The notes under the pieces were generated by a model, which made no database searches, was not told the DNA's origin, and worked only from the letters and a program-made list of their open reading frames with translations. The position numbers and the translations under genes are program-made. A DNA stretch of 7,974 nt from JBFJWU01 sp041623475 [NCBI: bacterium] (GTDB lineage Bacteria; J088): NCBI GenBank assembly GCA_041623475.1, contig JBFJWU010000144.1:1-7974 (forward strand). The letters are read 5' to 3'. Below are positions 1-7,974 of the stretch, in pieces; position 1 is the stretch's first letter; every line of letters begins with the position of its first letter.

Positions 1-298
1 CAGTTTGACCCGCGGCGTTGGACATCCGCAGCTCCAGATACTTGTCTGTGTACCAGATTACCTCTGGTCTGGATACCATCCTGGCTTCAATCAGTTCCAG
101 CTGTTCCCCGTCGCGGTAGGCGTTGGAAACCATCACGGCAGAAGGACCGTCAGCCATCAGCATCAAGGTGACTTTTGATCGTCCCTTGGGGCCTTCAATG
201 GTCAGCGTTTCATCGCTTGAAATCGCGTCGCCCGCAGGGGCGACCGACGCAACAGCCAAAGAACCGACAACTATTAGAAATCGTGTCAAAACAGCCAT
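1..298 (-). CDS. Small exported protein of unknown function (C-terminus beyond window)
   Basis: The reading frame starts at ATG 298 on the minus strand and stays open for 99 codons to the window edge, so the C-terminus is missing. The N-terminus looks like a Sec signal peptide: MAVLTRF, then a hydrophobic stretch (LIVVGSLAVASVA), with likely cleavage after APAGDA near residues 23-25. The mature part (LTIEGPKGRSKVTLMLMADG, then a Tyr/Asp/Glu-rich stretch) looks beta-rich, but I do not recognise a family. An AGGA sequence (308-311) lies 9 bases upstream of the start. The gene is 42 bases downstream of the SRPBCC gene on the same strand and is probably the last visible member of the TRAP operon. 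It is likely periplasmic. No function is assigned. Confidence 0.68.
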   Translation of the reverse strand, partial: MAVLTRFLIVVGSLAVASVAPAGDAISSDETLTIEGPKGRSKVTLMLMADGPSAVMVSNAYRDGEQLELIEARMVSRPEVIWYTDKYLELRMSNAAGQT

Positions 299-312
299 GG
301 CTTTCGATCCTA

Positions 313-332
313 GCACGTCAGGAAAAACGTGC
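313..332. repeat. Perfect 6-bp inverted repeat in the intercistronic gap
   Basis: GCACGT (313-318) and ACGTGC (327-332) are perfect reverse complements around an 8-base loop. The hairpin lies between the SRPBCC stop and the AGGA sequence preceding the last gene. Neither side is followed by a T-run, so it is not a standard intrinsic terminator. It could affect translation or mRNA stability of the downstream gene, or be a chance structure. Confidence 0.35.
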
Positions 333-340
333 AATAGATC

Positions 341-829
341 CTAAAATCGCTCATCGACATATTTAGCCAGCCCCTTCATGTACCCGCCAAGGGCGCGTTT
401 CATAAACGGCGCGATCAACCGATCAAGCAGCCCGAAAATACCAGCACCGTCATAGGCAACGGTCCATTGCAACTGGCATTGCCCCTCACCCAGATCCTTG
501 ATGTCATAATTTTCCGCAAAAATCTTCCAGGTTTTGCGATTTGTGCCGTCCAGGCAGAACGCCATGTGCCGGCCGGATTCCCAAGCTATGAACCGTTCGT
601 ACAACGTCAGGTTGCCGCTAAGATCGACGGTCCTGGTTGTGCCGACACCGTAGGGTTTGGAGCTGGTCCAGGTGACATTCTGGATTCCGCCCGCCCACAC
701 GGTCCAGGCAATTTCATCCTCGAACACCTGGAACAACTGGTCGCCCGAGCAATTCAGCTCAACAGTAAAATCGAATCGACGCACCGCTCGATCGAAATAC
801 GTCAGGTCGACCGTTTCGCAGTCGTACAT
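341..829 (-). CDS. SRPBCC / START-like (polyketide cyclase-dehydrase type) protein
   Basis: This 162-residue protein has the length and layout of single-domain SRPBCC proteins (Polyketide_cyc2-like). There is a short N-terminal strand (FDFTVELNCSG, about 19-29), then the first helix (DQLFQVFEDE, about 30-39) and a Trp-rich turn (WTVWAGGIQNVTW). A run of beta strands carries the usual G-x-G-T-x-R-x-V pattern (GVGTTRTVDL, about 61-70). A long amphipathic C-terminal helix follows (LLDRLIAPFMKRALGGYMKGLAKYV, about 134-158). The family forms a hydrophobic cavity that binds lipids, polyketides or other apolar ligands; no catalytic residues can be assigned here. There is no signal peptide, so it should be cytoplasmic. 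Its ATG lies 3 bases past the dctM stop, so it is almost certainly cotranscribed and may be translationally coupled. The ligand is unknown. Confidence 0.8.
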   Translation of the reverse strand: MYDCETVDLTYFDRAVRRFDFTVELNCSGDQLFQVFEDEIAWTVWAGGIQNVTWTSSKPYGVGTTRTVDLSGNLTLYERFIAWESGRHMAFCLDGTNRKTWKIFAENYDIKDLGEGQCQLQWTVAYDGAGIFGLLDRLIAPFMKRALGGYMKGLAKYVDERF

Positions 830-832
830 CGG

Positions 833-2116
833 TCAGGGTCCCAGAAGTGCCAGTGATATTTGCGGAATATATGTAATCAAACCCAGGCCAATCAGCAGTA
901 GCGCTGTAAACGGCAACGCTCCGCGCACGACTTCGAGGAACGGACGATTGAAGATCGAGGTCGCAACAAACAAGTTTAGCCCCAGGGGCGGTGTCAGGAA
1001 TCCGATCTCCAGATTGACAATAAAGATAATGCCCAGGTGAACAGGATCGACACCATACTCGACACCGACAGCTGCGATAATCGGTGCCAGGATCAGGATT
1101 GCGCTGATGATATCCATCACGCAACCGGTCGCAAGCAAGACAATGTTGGTCAACATCAGGAAACCGACTTTTGAGTCGACGTATCCTTGCAGGGCCTCTG
1201 TCAACAGGACCGGCACACGTTGCAATGTCAGGAAATTCGCCAATGCCGCCGCCAGGGCGACGATCATTAAAATAGCGCCCATTTCGGTCATTGATCGAAC
1301 AATCAGGTTGGGCACTTCGCCAAATTTGATTTCCTTGTGGATAAACACTTCAACGAACAGCGCGTAGACGACAGACAGCGCCGCGGCTTCGTTGACCGTC
1401 GTAAATCCGCTGTAAATCCCGCCCAGAATCAGGACAGGCAGCATAATCCCCCAGAATCCTTCGCGAAACCGTGCCGCCGCCGTCGCGAAATCAAACGGCT
1501 CAGTACGGACGCCATAGCGAATGCCCTGGATCACGCAATAGACCATCAGAATTCCACCCAACAGCAGGCCAGGCAGGAAACCGGCGATAAACAGGCGCCC
1601 AACGCTGACACCATCGACCATGATCGCGTAGACGATCATGGGGATACTTGGGGGAATCAGGATGCCCAGGCTCCCGCTGCTGCTGATCAGCCCCAGCCCG
1701 AATCGTTCCGGGTATTCCTCTTTGACAAGTGCCGGGAACATGACCATTCCGATGGCGACAACAGTCGCGGCGCTGGAGCCACTGATCGCGGCAAAGATCA
1801 GGCAGGCAAAGACAGTCGCGACACCCAACCCCCCGGGTAACCAACTGACCAGGGATCTTGCGAATCCAATCAACTTTCGACTGATTCCGCCGCCCGTCAT
1901 AATGACCCCAGCCAGGACAAAAAACGGTATCGCCAGCAGCGCCTCTTTATTAAGGATGCCGAACATCTTCTGGGCAACCAGAAATCCCCATTTGTCGGAC
2001 GGGATATGCGTGAACACGCCAAATGACAGCAGCGTCATTGATCCAATGACCGCGAACAGGGGAACGCCCAGTGCAATCAGAACGAACCCGGCGAGAACGA
2101 CTAAACCGGCGGTCAC
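833..2116 (-). CDS. dctM: TRAP transporter large permease subunit DctM
   Basis: This is the large membrane subunit of a TRAP secondary transporter, which uses an ion gradient to import the ligand delivered by the periplasmic receptor. At 427 residues it has the normal family length and is hydrophobic throughout, with about a dozen membrane segments. Family hallmarks are visible: IPFFVLAGVIMTGGGISRKL (about 63-82), the SGSSAATV motif (112-119), GILIPPSIPM (151-160), and near the C-terminus FLTPPLGLNLF. The start is GTG at 2116. Its first four bases overlap the dctQ stop (GTGA), a typical coupled arrangement for Q and M subunits. No ATG near the N-terminus fits better. The next gene, an SRPBCC protein, begins 3 bases after the stop. 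Family-level assignment is secure; the substrate cannot be read from this subunit. Confidence 0.96.
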   Translation of the reverse strand: MTAGLVVLAGFVLIALGVPLFAVIGSMTLLSFGVFTHIPSDKWGFLVAQKMFGILNKEALLAIPFFVLAGVIMTGGGISRKLIGFARSLVSWLPGGLGVATVFACLIFAAISGSSAATVVAIGMVMFPALVKEEYPERFGLGLISSSGSLGILIPPSIPMIVYAIMVDGVSVGRLFIAGFLPGLLLGGILMVYCVIQGIRYGVRTEPFDFATAAARFREGFWGIMLPVLILGGIYSGFTTVNEAAALSVVYALFVEVFIHKEIKFGEVPNLIVRSMTEMGAILMIVALAAALANFLTLQRVPVLLTEALQGYVDSKVGFLMLTNIVLLATGCVMDIISAILILAPIIAAVGVEYGVDPVHLGIIFIVNLEIGFLTPPLGLNLFVATSIFNRPFLEVVRGALPFTALLLIGLGLITYIPQISLALLGP

Positions 2117-2700
2117 GAGTTTGGCTCTTCCGGCGCGTCCGCAGATTTGATCAGGTCATCCAGCCCGACAGCGGCCCGCCGTCGATCCCCGGGATATGCA
2201 CCAAGTGCAATGGCCAGTTCCTCGAGCGCGATCTGCAAAAAACGAATACTCATTACAGACAGCGAAATCGGCAGTCCGACTACAACGTATTTCATCGGCA
2301 ATTGCAGTGCAGTCGAGGTCCGGAACTGTACGCCGGGGCTGTTCATATATTCGATTCCGGCGAACAATACGAATACGACAAACACACCAGTCGCCAGGAA
2401 CACGGCCGCATTCAGGAACAGCGCGGCGGGTCGGTCACCGAGGAGTTTGGGCACAGCGTCGACAACAATGTGTTTGCGGTCACGGGTAGCCAGCGATCCG
2501 CTGATGAACCCGACCCAGACAAGCAGAAACGTCGCAAGCTCGTTGGCACCAAACAGGTTTTTGTCGGCAACGACACGTAATACGCTTTGGCCGAACACGG
2601 TCCCGACCATTGCAATCACTGCGACAACGACGACGAACTTTTCGACTGCAGCAATCCAGTCGTCCAGCATGCGCCAGCGATCCAGTACGCTTGTAATCAC
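2113..2700 (-). CDS. dctQ: TRAP transporter small permease subunit DctQ
   Basis: This 195-residue protein has four predicted membrane segments (about 19-41, 54-72, 92-116 and 135-160), as expected for DctQ. The family signature follows the first loop: GANELATFLLVWVGFISG (51-68), then SLATRDRKHIVVD (69-81), matching the usual E-x-A-x-x-x-x-V-W pattern followed by R-x-x-H-I-x-V-D. DctQ pairs with DctM in the inner membrane. The start is GTG at 2700, chosen because GAGGA (2708-2712) sits 7 bases upstream. An ATG at 2670 (Met11) lacks such a site and would remove part of the N-terminal region. The polar C-terminal tail (DLIKSADAPEEPNS) is cytoplasmic or disordered. The stop overlaps the dctM start. 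Confidence 0.94.
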   Translation of the reverse strand: MITSVLDRWRMLDDWIAAVEKFVVVVAVIAMVGTVFGQSVLRVVADKNLFGANELATFLLVWVGFISGSLATRDRKHIVVDAVPKLLGDRPAALFLNAAVFLATGVFVVFVLFAGIEYMNSPGVQFRTSTALQLPMKYVVVGLPISLSVMSIRFLQIALEELAIALGAYPGDRRRAAVGLDDLIKSADAPEEPNS

Positions 2701-2707
2701 ACGTATA

Positions 2708-2712
2708 TCCTC
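2708..2712 (-). promoter_or_regulatory. Ribosome binding site that fixes the GTG start of dctQ
   Basis: GAGGA on the minus strand is followed by a 7-base spacer and GTG at 2700. The spacing is near ideal and supports the GTG start over the in-frame ATG at 2670. Confidence 0.7.
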
Positions 2713-2744
2713 AAAAGCCCTGCGTCAATTCTAAGCGGCCGAAA

Positions 2745-3764
2745 TTACTTGTTCTTTGCCCTGTACTCCGCCTTGCCTTGCTCGGCAAGCTTCAGGACGT
2801 CCTCGCCGATCAGGGCACGAATCTGCGGGTCGTTGACGACACCTGCAGACCGCTTGCGGAACACGTCACGTTCCGCTGGAGTCAACTGGACAATGTTCTT
2901 GCCCATTGTCTTGAACAAATCTTCCAGTTCTTTTTCTGATTCAAGCAACCGGTTGCGCATATCGGTTTCGCCCTTGCGCATCTCCGAATAAAAAACCTGC
3001 TTGTGGGCATCAGGAACTGTTCCCCACCACCCCTTGTTGCAAATCATGACGGCGGGTTGATAGATATGACCACTGATCGTCACGTTGTTGATAACTTCTG
3101 CCCAGCCTGTGGCCATGATCAAGACCAGGGTATTGTCGCCACCATCAATAATGCCGCGTTCCAATGCCTGGTAAATCTCGGTTGTCGCCAGCGGTGTCGG
3201 ATTCACGCCCAGTGATTTCCAAAATGCGATGTGAACCGGGCTCTCCTGGCTCCTCATTTTCAGGCCCTTCAGGTCCTCGGGCTTGCGGACGATCGAATCG
3301 CCCATCGTATAAAAGTGACGCCAGCCGTTTTCGCTCCAACCCAACTGGACCAGCCCGATCTTTTCCAACTCCGAGGCAAAGTAGTCCCGGAAGTGGTTGT
3401 CAATAACGTAGTAAGCCTCGTCGCGGCTTTCCCAGAAAAACGGAATTTCGAACACCTGCATCGCCGGCATCAAATTGGCGACCGAACCGGTGCTGACTCC
3501 GGCGCATTCAATCGAACCAAACTGGGTGCTTTCGACCATCTGGATCTCGTCACCCAACTGCCCGCCGGGAAAAATCTGCCATTTGAACTCGTTATTGGTT
3601 CGGGACAGCAGCCCCTTCGACATCAGTTCCAGGCTTTCGATCCAGGGAGATCCACCGGGTGCCATAGTTCCAAGCTTGACGCGCTTGACATCAGCGCCCT
3701 GGGCCGAAGGAGCGGCCACAAGCATCACTGCAGCGATTAATGACAGTCTGATTTGATTCTTCAT
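2745..3764 (-). CDS. dctP: TRAP transporter periplasmic substrate-binding protein (DctP / TatP type)
   Basis: This 339-residue protein has a Sec signal peptide (MKNQIR, then LSLIAAVMLVAAPSAQG) with cleavage around residues 23-24. The mature protein begins with the DctP-type pattern VKLGTMAPGGSPW (29-41). Further family landmarks are FPGGQLGDE (65-73), the lid region EDLKGLKMRSQES (163-175) carrying the ligand-binding arginine position (R171), and TEIYQALERGIIDGGDNTL (195-213). That last segment aligns with the usual EVYxALQxGxxDGxExP motif but reads GGDNT where many members have GQENP. The C-terminus is a helix-rich, lysine-containing tail (EQGKAEYRAKNK). It lies 46 bases downstream of the TatT-like lipoprotein gene and 44 bases upstream of dctQ. 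No clear Shine-Dalgarno precedes its ATG. Pairing with TatT suggests a TPAT receptor with a probably hydrophobic ligand, which is an inference. Confidence 0.94.
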   Translation of the reverse strand: MKNQIRLSLIAAVMLVAAPSAQGADVKRVKLGTMAPGGSPWIESLELMSKGLLSRTNNEFKWQIFPGGQLGDEIQMVESTQFGSIECAGVSTGSVANLMPAMQVFEIPFFWESRDEAYYVIDNHFRDYFASELEKIGLVQLGWSENGWRHFYTMGDSIVRKPEDLKGLKMRSQESPVHIAFWKSLGVNPTPLATTEIYQALERGIIDGGDNTLVLIMATGWAEVINNVTISGHIYQPAVMICNKGWWGTVPDAHKQVFYSEMRKGETDMRNRLLESEKELEDLFKTMGKNIVQLTPAERDVFRKRSAGVVNDPQIRALIGEDVLKLAEQGKAEYRAKNK

Positions 3765-3810
3765 GTATAAAACCCGTTTTCCAAATATTGAAAGTTAACC
3801 GGCAGCTGCT

Positions 3811-4725
3811 TCAGTCCAGCAATGCGTACAGCGAAAACGGCAGCGACGCAAACAAGTCATTTACCTGTGCCAGCATTTCACGAGCCTTTTCCTGCTCGAC
3901 TTTCTGTTCCGGCACTACATCGGGTATGACGGTTGGATCGCTTTCGATAACCTGATTCAAGAGATTTTCGAACATCTCGCGGTCCTGGATCTTGGTTGCC
4001 AGCGTGTCGGCCATCAGGACCTTGGTACCCAGGTAGTTGGGCGCGAGTTCGAGGCTTTTATCGTAATGTTTACGAGACACTTCAACATCACCGCCAGCAA
4101 ATGATGGTGCGATGGAATAGTATGCACCCCAATAACGATCAGGGCCGCCGTAGTAGTAATCCGGCGCCTGTTCGGTAACCCATTCCATCAGTTTCTTGAC
4201 GCGGTTTTTCTGGGACAGCAGCGTTGTAAAGCCCTTCAGGCGAGCCCATTTACCCGTTGCTGCAGCGCTCCAGTAAACCGCTCCGGCGTAGCTCGCATCA
4301 AGGACGCGGATCGCGTCCTCAACGGGTTCTTCATCAACCTTGACCAGTTTTACAAAGTCCTCGTCCGTTGCCATGGCACGTTCACCCCAGCTGGCGGACG
4401 TATCGTACAACCTCAGCTGTTCCTCTTTGTTTGCCCGGTTATAACCGTCGGACAGGAAATAGTATGCGCGCGACAGGCGGATCATCACATCCTTCTGGTT
4501 GGGATTGATCGCGATCGCCTTCTCGTAACCGGCGATTGCCTGACGCAACGTATCCGCGTTGTCACGACCCGCCCAGGCCGCCTCAGCCTCGGCCAGTACT
4601 TCGGTCAGGTTACCTTCGACCTGGGTTGTCTCGCGCTCCCAGCCGGCGACGCGGCTGGCACCACACGCGCTTAACAATCCTGCCGTCGAGACAACAGCAA
4701 CTGCCGCAAAAAACTTCCTGTTCAT
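3811..4725 (-). CDS. tatT: TatT-type TPR lipoprotein associated with the TRAP transporter
   Basis: This 304-residue protein starts with a lipoprotein signal peptide: MNRKFF, a hydrophobic core, and lipobox LSAC with the lipidated cysteine at 21. Gly22 follows rather than Asp, so outer-membrane sorting by Lol is expected. The mature protein is helical and TPR-like. One repeat is visible at about 59-96 (LRQAIAGYEKAIAINPNQKD...) and another at about 217-250 (SRKHYDKSLELAPNYLGT...). The segment YYYGGPDRYWGAYYSI (190-205) is the kind of aromatic signature I associate with the TatT family, as is the C-terminal pattern MFENLLNQVIESDP. TatT was defined from T. pallidum Tp0956, a TPR lipoprotein that complexes with the TRAP receptor Tp0957. 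Here the gene sits directly upstream of dctP, as expected for such a pair. An AGGAGG site (4735-4740) lies 9 bases from the ATG. The family call rests on recalled motifs and context. Confidence 0.85.
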   Translation of the reverse strand: MNRKFFAAVAVVSTAGLLSACGASRVAGWERETTQVEGNLTEVLAEAEAAWAGRDNADTLRQAIAGYEKAIAINPNQKDVMIRLSRAYYFLSDGYNRANKEEQLRLYDTSASWGERAMATDEDFVKLVKVDEEPVEDAIRVLDASYAGAVYWSAAATGKWARLKGFTTLLSQKNRVKKLMEWVTEQAPDYYYGGPDRYWGAYYSIAPSFAGGDVEVSRKHYDKSLELAPNYLGTKVLMADTLATKIQDREMFENLLNQVIESDPTVIPDVVPEQKVEQEKAREMLAQVNDLFASLPFSLYALLD

Positions 4726-4794: not shown

Positions 4795-5223
4795 TCAAGT
4801 TCCGGTATCGTCGTCCGTGGCGCTGTCATCACCCAGCATAATCCCCTTTTCCGCCAGCAGGATACGAACTTTTTCAACCAGGTCATCACCGTTAAAGGGC
4901 TTGGTCACATATGCGTCGCAGCCCGCCTGGAATGCCCGTTGCAAATGCTCCTGGTCATCGCGTCCAGTCACGATAATCACCGCCGTGTCTTCCAGTTCCG
5001 GTTTGGACTTGATGACACGGCAGATCTGCTCGCCATTCAGGTCAGGAAGCATCAGATCCAGGAACACGACATCCGGGCGCTCACTGGCAACTTTCTTGAC
5101 TGCTTCGGCTCCGGATTCGGCCCGAAAAATTTCCAGCTCTGAAAACTGTTTCAGAATTCGTTCTTCTTCATCGAGGATCGCAACGACATCATCAACTAGC
5201 AATATTTTCGCTCGATTGGTCAT
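4795..5223 (-). CDS. Stand-alone response-regulator receiver protein
   Basis: This 142-residue protein consists of a single CheY-like receiver domain. All conserved positions are present: acidic pair D11-D12 (ILLVDD), phospho-acceptor D56 (VVFLDLMLPDLNG), switch residue T86 (IIVTGRDD), Y105, and K108 in YVTKPF. The domain ends near residue 125 and is followed by a short acidic tail (GDDSATDDDTGT) with no output domain. It should therefore act by protein-protein contact after phosphorylation by a histidine kinase that is not in this window. Its ATG overlaps the stop of the upstream gene (ATGA), so the two are translationally coupled and probably work together. It lies 69 bases upstream of the TRAP operon on the same strand and might be cotranscribed with it, though a hairpin separates them. 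The target is unknown. Confidence 0.93.
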   Translation of the reverse strand: MTNRAKILLVDDVVAILDEEERILKQFSELEIFRAESGAEAVKKVASERPDVVFLDLMLPDLNGEQICRVIKSKPELEDTAVIIVTGRDDQEHLQRAFQAGCDAYVTKPFNGDDLVEKVRILLAEKGIMLGDDSATDDDTGT

Positions 5224-5798
5224 TTTTTGGATGCCTTTTTTGACCCGGATGCCTTCTTCTTTGCGGCAACCTTTTTGGGCTTGGTTGTTTTCTTTTCCGA
5301 ATTGCCGGCCCGCCGCCGGAGGACCTGGACGGGATCTTCCGACTGGGCTTCGCGCAGCAGTGCCCGCAGGTCAGATAATGTTCGGACCCCGCGCGACGAT
5401 GCAAGCTGCAACACACGCGGTCCGCCACGCAGCAATACCTGCACATAGCCTCGACGGAGCAGTTTACCGAACGGCGATATCAGTCGGAACCGAACCTGCA
5501 CGTCCGGATCTTCGCTTGTTACGCATTCAAACAAAACCATCGCGAAATCGCCAATGTCGCCATCCGCGCCGGTCAGCATATCAATCGACGAGGGCGTAAA
5601 ACTGAACGCAAAATCCGGATCCGGCGACGGCCCTTCCAGCAGCAGGCTCTGGCCGTCTTCACGCATCAGGTGCCACTCGCCGTCCAGGTGCGAAAAAAAC
5701 ACCTGGCTGGACGCCCCGTCCTTGATGTTTTTGGCCGCATCGACCCAACTCGGATGACTTAGAAAGTACTCCGACAGCTTTTTTACGTAGGGGTCCAT
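5220..5798 (-). CDS. Protein of unknown function with possible SCP2-like core and lysine-rich tail
   Basis: This 192-residue protein is soluble and has no signal peptide. Residues 1-25 look helical. Residues 33-130 look alpha/beta, with a pattern resembling sterol-carrier (SCP2) folds: a strand-like FAFSFTPSSIDMLTG (63-77), then GDFAMVLFECV, then VRFRLISPFGKLLRRGYVQVLL (102-123). This match is by eye and weak. Residues about 168-192 form a basic tail (KKTTKPKKVAAKKKASGSKK...) with 12 lysines in the last 24 residues. The tail resembles histone-H1-like tails of some bacterial proteins, so nucleic-acid or membrane-phosphate binding is possible. The gene overlaps the receiver-protein start by four bases (ATGA). 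Its own ATG sits 9 bases after a strong extended -10 element with no Shine-Dalgarno, so the mRNA may be leaderless. I do not recognise the protein as a named family. Confidence 0.82.
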   Translation of the reverse strand: MDPYVKKLSEYFLSHPSWVDAAKNIKDGASSQVFFSHLDGEWHLMREDGQSLLLEGPSPDPDFAFSFTPSSIDMLTGADGDIGDFAMVLFECVTSEDPDVQVRFRLISPFGKLLRRGYVQVLLRGGPRVLQLASSRGVRTLSDLRALLREAQSEDPVQVLRRRAGNSEKKTTKPKKVAAKKKASGSKKASKK

Positions 5799-6933: not shown

Positions 6934-7974
6934 ATGGCAACCACATACTTCGTCACCGGCGGCACGGGATTCATCGGTCGATTCCTGATCAGGGAACTGG
7001 CCGCGAAAGAATGCGATATCTACGTTCTGGTCAGATCCGGGTCGCGCCAGAAATTTGCCAGGCTCGTTGATGCGTGTGACAGCCTCCCGGGCCGGTTGAT
7101 TCCCGTTACTGGTGACATCACACGACGATCTGTCCTGTCAGCAAAGAAAGACCGCGAACTACTCATTCGTTCTGTCGACCAGGTGTTCCACCTGGCGGCG
7201 ATCTACGACATGTCAGTTGACTCAGACACTGCCAGGACCATGAACGTCGACGGAACAGAGCACGTCATCCAACTGGCCAACGACATGAAAAAGTGCACGT
7301 GCCTGCACCACGTCAGTTCGATTGCTGTTGCCGGGGATTTCAAAGGCGTGTTTGACGAAACCATGTTTGACGAGGGGCAGAAACTCAAACATCCATATTT
7401 CGCAACCAAGTTCGAGTCCGAACAACTGGTCAGGACAACGGCGAAAACGCCGTGGCGGATTTATCGACCAGGTGTCGTTGTTGGCAGTTCGCAAACAGGC
7501 GAGATGGACAAGATCGATGGGCCGTATTATTTTTTCAAATTGATTCAGAATATTCGCGGGGTCTTACCACAGTGGATGCCTTTGGTCGGTATCGAAGGTG
7601 GCCCACTGCAAATGGTCCCGGTCGACTACGTCGCCGCAGCCATTGCCCGTATCGCCTCGCAGCCAGGATTGGACGGCAAAGCATTCCATTTGGTTGATCG
7701 CGAGGCCCGGTCAATTGGCGACGTCACAAATGAGTTTTGCAGGGCGGCACACGCGCCGGAATTGGCGATGCGGATCGATTCGCGGATGTTCAATGTCATT
7801 CCGCCGGGAATCAGGATGGTTGCCGGCCAATTACCAATGGTCAGGGACTTTCGCGACACCATCGCCGACAGCATCGGCGTGCCGCCACAGTTGCTCGGCA
7901 GCATGAACCTGCGCGCCACGTTTTCTGATGCAAACACTGCCGCTGCCCTGGACGGCAGTGATATCGAGTGCCCG
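6934..7974 (+). CDS. Fatty acyl-CoA reductase, N-terminal SDR half (C-terminus beyond window)
   Basis: 347 codons are visible and the frame is open at the window edge. The N-terminus is an extended SDR Rossmann domain: YFVTGGTGFIGR (5-16) is the NADP-binding glycine motif, followed by VFHLAAIYDM (84-93), HHVSSI (125-130, catalytic Ser region) and the active-site Y155-x-x-x-K159 (YFATK). Long stretches match what I recall of the alcohol-forming fatty acyl-CoA reductase of Marinobacter (Maqu_2507 type): RIYRPGVVVG, TGEMDKIDGPYYFFKLIQ, ALPQW-like LPQWMPLVGIEGG, VPVDYV, and further on MRIDSRMFNVIPP. Those enzymes are about 660 residues and carry a second SDR domain in the C-terminal half, which would lie outside this window. 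They reduce acyl-CoA (or acyl-ACP) to fatty aldehyde and then alcohol with NADPH, feeding wax-ester synthesis. Some close homologues are annotated only as SDR oxidoreductases, so the exact substrate is inferred. Confidence 0.88.
   Translation, partial: MATTYFVTGGTGFIGRFLIRELAAKECDIYVLVRSGSRQKFARLVDACDSLPGRLIPVTGDITRRSVLSAKKDRELLIRSVDQVFHLAAIYDMSVDSDTARTMNVDGTEHVIQLANDMKKCTCLHHVSSIAVAGDFKGVFDETMFDEGQKLKHPYFATKFESEQLVRTTAKTPWRIYRPGVVVGSSQTGEMDKIDGPYYFFKLIQNIRGVLPQWMPLVGIEGGPLQMVPVDYVAAAIARIASQPGLDGKAFHLVDREARSIGDVTNEFCRAAHAPELAMRIDSRMFNVIPPGIRMVAGQLPMVRDFRDTIADSIGVPPQLLGSMNLRATFSDANTAAALDGSDIECP

Follow-up and report, generated by a model that had tools for sequence, protein, structure and literature searches.

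The window, as we call the whole 7,974-nucleotide stretch of contig JBFJWU010000144.1 (assembly GCA_041623475.1, JBFJWU01 sp041623475; GTDB lineage Bacteria; J088), encodes a tripartite ATP-independent periplasmic (TRAP) transporter whose receptor gene dctP and permease genes dctQ and dctM are preceded by a gene for a tetratricopeptide repeat (TPR) lipoprotein, here called T. By sequence, fold and gene order the system is a TatT-associated TRAP transporter (TPAT), as an earlier note on this DNA had proposed: T matches the TAtT family, its model matches both PDB entry 8g52 and Treponema pallidum TatT, and dctPQM genes lie beside it. T has the TatT fold and a lipobox, the permease is made by two genes, and the receptor, of DctP fold, has the carboxylate-binding arginine; across related loci this arginine and the window's type of T occur together. 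On balance we lean towards a TPAT from a separate branch, with a receptor and a T pore that are both adapted to an acidic ligand, most likely an acid-headed amphiphile (for instance a lysolipid or a long-chain fatty acid). The lipid nature of the cargo is the weaker part of this proposal.

The window receptor, DctP, has a Sec-type signal and, as read from the sequence, no N-terminal cysteine, and so does not look like a lipoprotein. Its model (33 sequences; predicted local distance difference test score, pLDDT, 92.0) has ordinary TRAP receptors as its fold neighbours. In the SiaP alignment, query residues 30–292 pair with residues 6–268 of the DctP chain (offset 24), which makes Arg171 of the window the equivalent of SiaP Arg147. 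That arginine is described as a filter for carboxylate ligands in the passages of PMC4646407 covered here, which also count its equivalent in 5943 of 6142 DctP-type receptors and give alanine at this site in Tp0957, the T. pallidum receptor TatP. According to the passages covered from PMC5812351, TatP homologues mostly lack the arginine, and the word “mostly” suggests that exceptions had already been seen. The window receptor thus combines the DctP fold and the Arg147 equivalent of an ordinary DctP-TRAP receptor, and the T. pallidum-type absence of that residue is not found in it; neither Arg171 nor His178 varies among the 33 receptors compared, those of the window and 32 T-linked relatives. 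The earlier note had implied a hydrophobic ligand as in T. pallidum, but that proposal was made for a receptor with alanine at the Arg147 site, whereas the window and its linked relatives of the same type have arginine, so it does not transfer directly.

The relatives of T were collected from named genomes, which were scanned with an alignment of T and the 8g52 segment and yielded 56 loci, mostly labelled Deltaproteobacteria, Myxococcota or proteobacterium; T used alone in such a scan returned no relative, and none came from a plasmid search with T or from a viral contig search with the T alignment (A3). A plasmid search with dctM gave only matches below 60% identity. The window DctP is 56–57% identical to the receptor of one of these loci, labelled Gemmatimonadetes (L035), and 25–39% identical to those of the others. 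Further TAtT loci came from the phyla to which G001, G002, G154 and G004 belong, where only the best-scoring places in the genomes were taken, and from additional fetched regions. Scored with the profile of A3, the T proteins of this first set fall into two groups with an empty gap from 172 to 282 bits between them, the high-scoring “window-type” T and the “other” T. Every receptor beside a window-type T has arginine at the Arg171 site (33/33, window included), as against none of the 64 scorable receptors beside other T (65 loci, one unscorable), which have tryptophan (50), phenylalanine (9) or tyrosine (5) there and in no case His178 or Gln236. Since T itself was the query that brought in the window-type T of the first set, high T scores are to be expected of them; no search made use of the receptor residue. 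Seven repeat fetches were left out of the first-set counts, as were 11 receptors with no recognised T close by: seven with arginine (L073–L075, L077–L080), three other TRAP receptors with arginine and no His178 (L081–L083), and one with tryptophan (L143). In seven loci a composition-scored gene caller missed T, which was placed there by tblastn and hidden Markov model (HMM) search.

A later set comprised 40 further T loci, picked by profile coverage for both kinds and not at random; removal of two duplicates of earlier loci (L146, L156) left 26 window-type and 12 other T. Their scores were 254 bits and more for the window-type and 71 and less for the others, with one T (L184), lacking a linked receptor, inside the earlier gap. 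All 17 receptors linked to the 26 window-type T have the arginine, His178 and Gln236, while the 10 receptors found for the 12 other T have tryptophan (3), glycine (3), tyrosine (2) or alanine (2), and never arginine. Over both sets the arginine is present in 50 of 50 receptors beside window-type T and in 0 of 74 scorable receptors beside other T, 53 of which have tryptophan. The usual residue at the carboxylate-arginine site in receptors of the other class (L064–L071, L084–L142; 50 of 64 scorable) is tryptophan, not the alanine of T. pallidum. Trees of T and of the receptor both group the window with L035, L034 and L027, with support of 90 and 100 in the Shimodaira–Hasegawa-like approximate likelihood ratio test, and T distances correlate with receptor distances (Spearman 0.52, against 0.29 for the best of 2000 shuffles; 51 rows, including the duplicate pair L006/L146).

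The same division is seen in T at positions aligned with the pore of its homologue BstC, the sterol transporter of Methylococcus capsulatus. The residues lining the cavities of BstC are tabulated in Table 6 of PMC10942540 (covered in part), whose numbering agrees with the BstC sequence at all residues listed. When 84 window-type T and 79 other T are aligned with BstC, whose Arg132 then faces a gap and whose residues 82 and 83 have no counterpart, three columns separate the two kinds. At the column of BstC Leu129, a cavity residue where the window has Lys159, a basic residue is found in 83/84 window-type T and 2/78 others; at that of BstC Arg166 (window Arg197), arginine is found in 84/84 window-type T, and a basic residue in 2/79 others; and at that of BstC Asn244 (window Glu273), glutamate is found in 83/83 window-type T, compared with an acidic residue in 7/76 others.

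T belongs to the TatT family, as had been claimed from the sequence. In an HMM search the 304-residue protein matches Pfam TAtT (PF16811) with 120 bits, well above the cut-off of 26.5, but the match is limited to T residues 103–292 (profile 70–263), and this partial coverage makes T a divergent member. By sequence its closest PDB entry is 8g52 (E 1.9e-53), followed by 3u64, the T. pallidum TatT (0.004), and BstC (0.11), the latter two ranking among unrelated TPR proteins. Predicted alone, as a single chain in AlphaFold2 (57 sequences; pLDDT 91.3; predicted template modelling score 0.87), T adopts the TatT fold, matching 8g52 with Z 34.9 (rmsd 1.6 over 258 residues, 41% identity), TatT with Z 25.7 (3u64; rmsd 2.2 over 239 residues), entry 4di3 with Z 25.4, and BstC (7t1s) with Z 20.3 (rmsd 3.8 over 222 residues), while generic TPR proteins trail at Z 18.3 and less. 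A Foldseek comparison of the model is part of the same fold support for the TPAT identity. Entry 8g53, which has the same title as 8g52, is less similar (Z 13.8).

The N terminus of T is a signal peptide leading to the lipobox AGLLSAC21-G22-A (LSAC at residues 18–21), so that the lipobox Cys21 and the glycine at +2 that the earlier note had pointed to are both present. By our own rule a lipobox occurs in 61 of 83 window-type relatives, and aspartate at +2 in none of the 61. The +2 sorting rule for lipoproteins derives from E. coli; read by it, outer-membrane anchoring of T is plausible. The signature described around residues 190–205 is likewise real: Arg197, Tyr198, Gly200, Ala201, Tyr203 and Pro207 are invariant in 57 T sequences, although the search that yielded 56 of these used two patterns, one being the motif itself less Pro207.

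TPATs are already known, and so is a solved T of the window's class. Entry 8g52, a T component that was released in 2023 as a “bacterial TPAT family transporter”, is a different protein from the window T, but belongs to the same T class and has equivalents of both Lys159 and Arg197. The T. pallidum pair TatT–TatP (Tp0956–Tp0957) shares the fold of T and its position beside dctP and permease genes; its TatT is a weak sequence match, however, and TatP, in the passages of PMC4646407 and PMC5812351 covered, has a hydrophobic pocket with alanine where the window DctP has arginine. TatP is also reported, in the passages covered, to be a lipoprotein, whereas the window DctP is without a lipobox. BstC shares the fold too, a ring with a pore, but its partners in the passages of PMC10942540 covered are BstA and BstB rather than the products of a TRAP operon, and we rejected the window T as a BstC on a score of 16 bits against the NCBIfam equivalog cut-off of 350. 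The classical DctPQM and SiaPQM systems share with the window a receptor with the carboxylate-binding arginine and both permease subunits, the small and the large, and have no T component. Our literature search found no paper on 8g52 or 8g53, or on a division of TPATs by the receptor arginine, with the two primary TPAT papers of 2012 outside its coverage; the passages covered hold no TPAT with a proven ligand.

Hints of a lipid come from the genes beside T in related loci. A Hydrolase_4 protein follows in 22 of the 56 loci, of which 10 have receptor genes and 12 have none. In 20 of them it adjoins the permease genes or T, and in L027 and L034 it comes after two intervening genes. One representative matches PF12146 at E 3.4e-85, and for each of the four that were compared with NCBIfam the best two models, below cut-off, were lysophospholipase L2 and phospholipase BipL. 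Elsewhere, a Hydrolase_4 gene precedes T (L012), a START gene overlaps the start of T (L010), and a PlsC acyltransferase gene stands just after T (L024). These lysophospholipase-like, START and PlsC neighbours hint at lipids. An aldehyde:ferredoxin oxidoreductase gene follows the receptor gene in L034 and has a homologue in L027; the order in both loci is T, receptor, aldehyde:ferredoxin oxidoreductase, a small protein that by eye looks like MoaD/ThiS, and hydrolase, and the flanking DNA has no match to dctQ or dctM.

Of the 56 loci, 32 have a receptor gene close to T, and in the other 24 T has no receptor or permease gene in the flanking DNA (two of them, L009 and L040, are at contig ends). 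For 11 genomes with such a solitary T, dctM was found elsewhere in all 11; eight were inspected at dctM, and seven of these have an Arg-type receptor there (L073–L075, L077–L080), the eighth (G157, L076) having dctM with no receptor in 13 kb. Because of this, a window-type T that stands alone probably works with a TRAP operon at another place in the genome, and we rejected the solitary T as an independent system. Four genomes (G161–G164) have two TAtT hits each. The one that scores high against TAtT has a receptor beside it with tryptophan at the site (L068–L071), together with dctM in three and not in the stretch from G163, and the second is a window-type T without TRAP genes (L042, L046, L051, L055). 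A bolder proposal, which we hold tentatively and with less than even confidence, is that two separate TPAT classes coexist in single genomes. The neutral-ligand class, which resembles T. pallidum, would have tryptophan, phenylalanine, tyrosine, alanine or glycine in the receptor and few charges in the T pore; the acid class, that of the window, would have arginine in the receptor and Lys/Arg159, Arg197 and Glu273 in the T pore. T and TRAP genes of the acid class may be unlinked, and the class might form a route for fatty acids or lysolipids from the outer to the inner membrane. Separately, very long proteins that all belong to one cluster, the longest of roughly 2,600 residues, stand before window-type T without TRAP genes in L042, L046, L048 and L051–L055, the copy in L054 having TPR matches, and in L164 a window-type T is followed by dctQ, dctM and a hydrolase gene with no receptor gene within 6.8 kb.

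In the mechanism that we envisage, the lipid of T would anchor it, with the outer membrane as the probable site, and its central pore would take up or shelter the ligand, which would then pass to a DctP docked at the pore mouth; DctP would close on the carboxylate (or phosphate or sulfonate) of the ligand via Arg171 and deliver it to DctQM for ion-driven import. A model of the same kind, with hand-over from the T pore to the receptor, has been published for T. pallidum (PMC5812351, passages covered). Several observations weigh against an acid-headed amphiphile as the ligand. The conserved pore residues of T include acids, at position 273 and, in 69 of 83 sequences, also at 277, and these may simply pair with the basic ones. 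Arg197 was part of the window-derived pattern behind 56 of the 84 T sequences, with 27 (L137 and 26 later loci) free of it, and the agreement of the T and receptor trees can be explained by species kinship alone. Most of the hydrolase loci form one syntenic lineage, L027/L034 and L045 lying elsewhere in the trees; in the later set a hydrolase occurs in 2 of 26 window-type loci (L164, after dctM, and L161, about 1.9 kb after T), where 3-kb flanks often end inside dctM. Three hydrolase copies read by eye have no signal peptide, the window has no hydrolase within its 8 kb, and of its outer neighbours only response regulators were matched in the 56 loci, scattered over six. The receptor, finally, has a sugar-acid receptor (7bbr) and an isethionate receptor (8t9t) in the first rows of its fold matches, and its nearest solved sequences are 4pdh, 4p9k/4pak and 4pdd, whose ligands we take to be small sugar acids; Arg171 may signal merely a small acid ligand.

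These last points define the serious rival, a TPAT for a small hydrophilic organic acid (a sugar acid, sulfonate or similar) in which T serves as a platform for docking or assembly while no ligand passes through its pore. Its strength lies in the receptor, since the nearest solved relatives are ordinary small-acid receptors; DctP keeps Arg171 and Asn211 and resembles in fold the carboxylate-binding TRAP receptors, and the window-type pore is, by homology, charged and not fully hydrophobic. We nevertheless regard it as less likely than the acid-headed amphiphile, given the lipid-enzyme neighbours in several lineages, the START-like gene in the window cluster, and the hydrophobic matter that homologues are reported to hold in the pore, both TatT (PMC5812351) and BstC, which binds sterols (PMC10942540), in the passages covered. 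A ligand that is hydrophobic and neutral, in line with the T. pallidum proposal, would suit a T fold and gene set that are the same as those of TatT–TatP, yet every window-type relative examined that has a linked receptor has the carboxylate-filter arginine, whose reported role in the covered passages of PMC4646407 is carboxylate selectivity, and we think such a ligand improbable. Still less probable is that T is mainly a periplasmic lipid shuttle of its own, as has been proposed for BstC with sterols, with the TRAP genes loosely coupled to it. The 24 loci without a receptor or permease match nearby, 12 of which keep the hydrolase beside T, would fit such a shuttle; the Arg-type receptors found with dctM elsewhere in seven of the eight genomes inspected, and the linkage of all four genes in the window, speak against it.

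The arrangement of the window genes is that of a TPAT: T stands directly upstream of dctP, dctQ and dctM, as had been claimed, all on one strand and closely spaced (gaps of 46, 44 and −4 bases). The span given for the system earlier, 2113–4725, takes in T, dctP and dctQ, but dctM lies just beyond it. Promoter and terminator scans were roughly at shuffle level (3 against 3.9 in shuffles, and 10 against 8.7), so the extent of the operon is judged from spacing.

Features of the TPAT cluster and its neighbours in the window (positions of the 7,974-nucleotide stretch)
Feature	Position	Strand	Best match
Protein of unassigned family, signal-like N terminus, 6 bases after the START-like gene, cut by the window end	2-334	-	
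START/SRPBCC-like lipid-binding-fold protein, 162 residues, 3 bases after dctM	341-829	-	PF10604 Polyketide_cyc2, E 3.7e-14
dctM, large permease subunit, 427 residues, 4-base overlap with dctQ	833-2116	-	PF06808, E 1.8e-104; TIGR00786, E 3.6e-119
dctQ, small permease subunit, 195 residues	2113-2700	-	PF04290, E 4.5e-21
dctP, solute receptor, 339 residues, with Arg171, His178, Asn211	2745-3764	-	PF03480, E 2.8e-64
T, TatT-type TPR lipoprotein, 304 residues	3811-4725	-	PF16811 TAtT, E 1.3e-34
T residues homologous to the BstC pore: Lys159, Arg197, Glu273	within 3811-4725	-	alignment
Single-domain response regulator, no output domain, 69 bases upstream of T	4795-5223	-	PF00072, E 1.6e-25
192-residue protein, lysine-rich tail, 4-base overlap with the response regulator	5220-5798	-	

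The START/SRPBCC-like gene possibly shares a transcript with dctM; its product had no match at E 1 in a PDB sequence search. The protein at 2-334 has no Pfam match up to E 10. The response regulator is a possible regulator of the T cluster. The 192-residue protein that overlaps it, read by eye as SCP2-like, has no Pfam match up to E 10 and that reading was dropped; the PDB search gave only a PCNA chain, over three repeats with a summed E of 1.2e-05 and single stretches of about 20, and tblastn against all the loci collected gave nothing better than E 5.8. On the opposite strand, a cut gene (6934-7974) encodes a short-chain dehydrogenase/reductase (SDR) with an NAD_binding_4 (Male sterility) domain, which resembles the first half of PRK07201 (421 bits, cut-off 549). 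We take this SDR group to include fatty acyl-CoA reductases, and the gene is a second hint of lipid metabolism nearby. Among the related loci, dctQ and dctM appear to be fused in five (L007, L011, L014, L023, L047; about 745–857 residues); the flanks of this lineage resemble, by eye, IMP dehydrogenase and pyrE, and some sister genomes have T and the hydrolase alone at a similar site.

T components of either kind are common in two phyla: among 188 genomes from the phylum of G154, 121 have TAtT, as do 81 of 191 from the phylum of G004. The earlier statement that most TRAP systems lack T fits 14 control genomes, in which DctM occurs in six and TAtT in none, yet within these two phyla T is no rarity. 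The division of T into classes turns a vague “hydrophobic ligand” into two different predictions, open to testing on purified receptors, and cautions against copying the T. pallidum ligand onto so large a group. If the acid class does carry fatty acids, it would provide a route for them across the periplasm, driven by an ion gradient.

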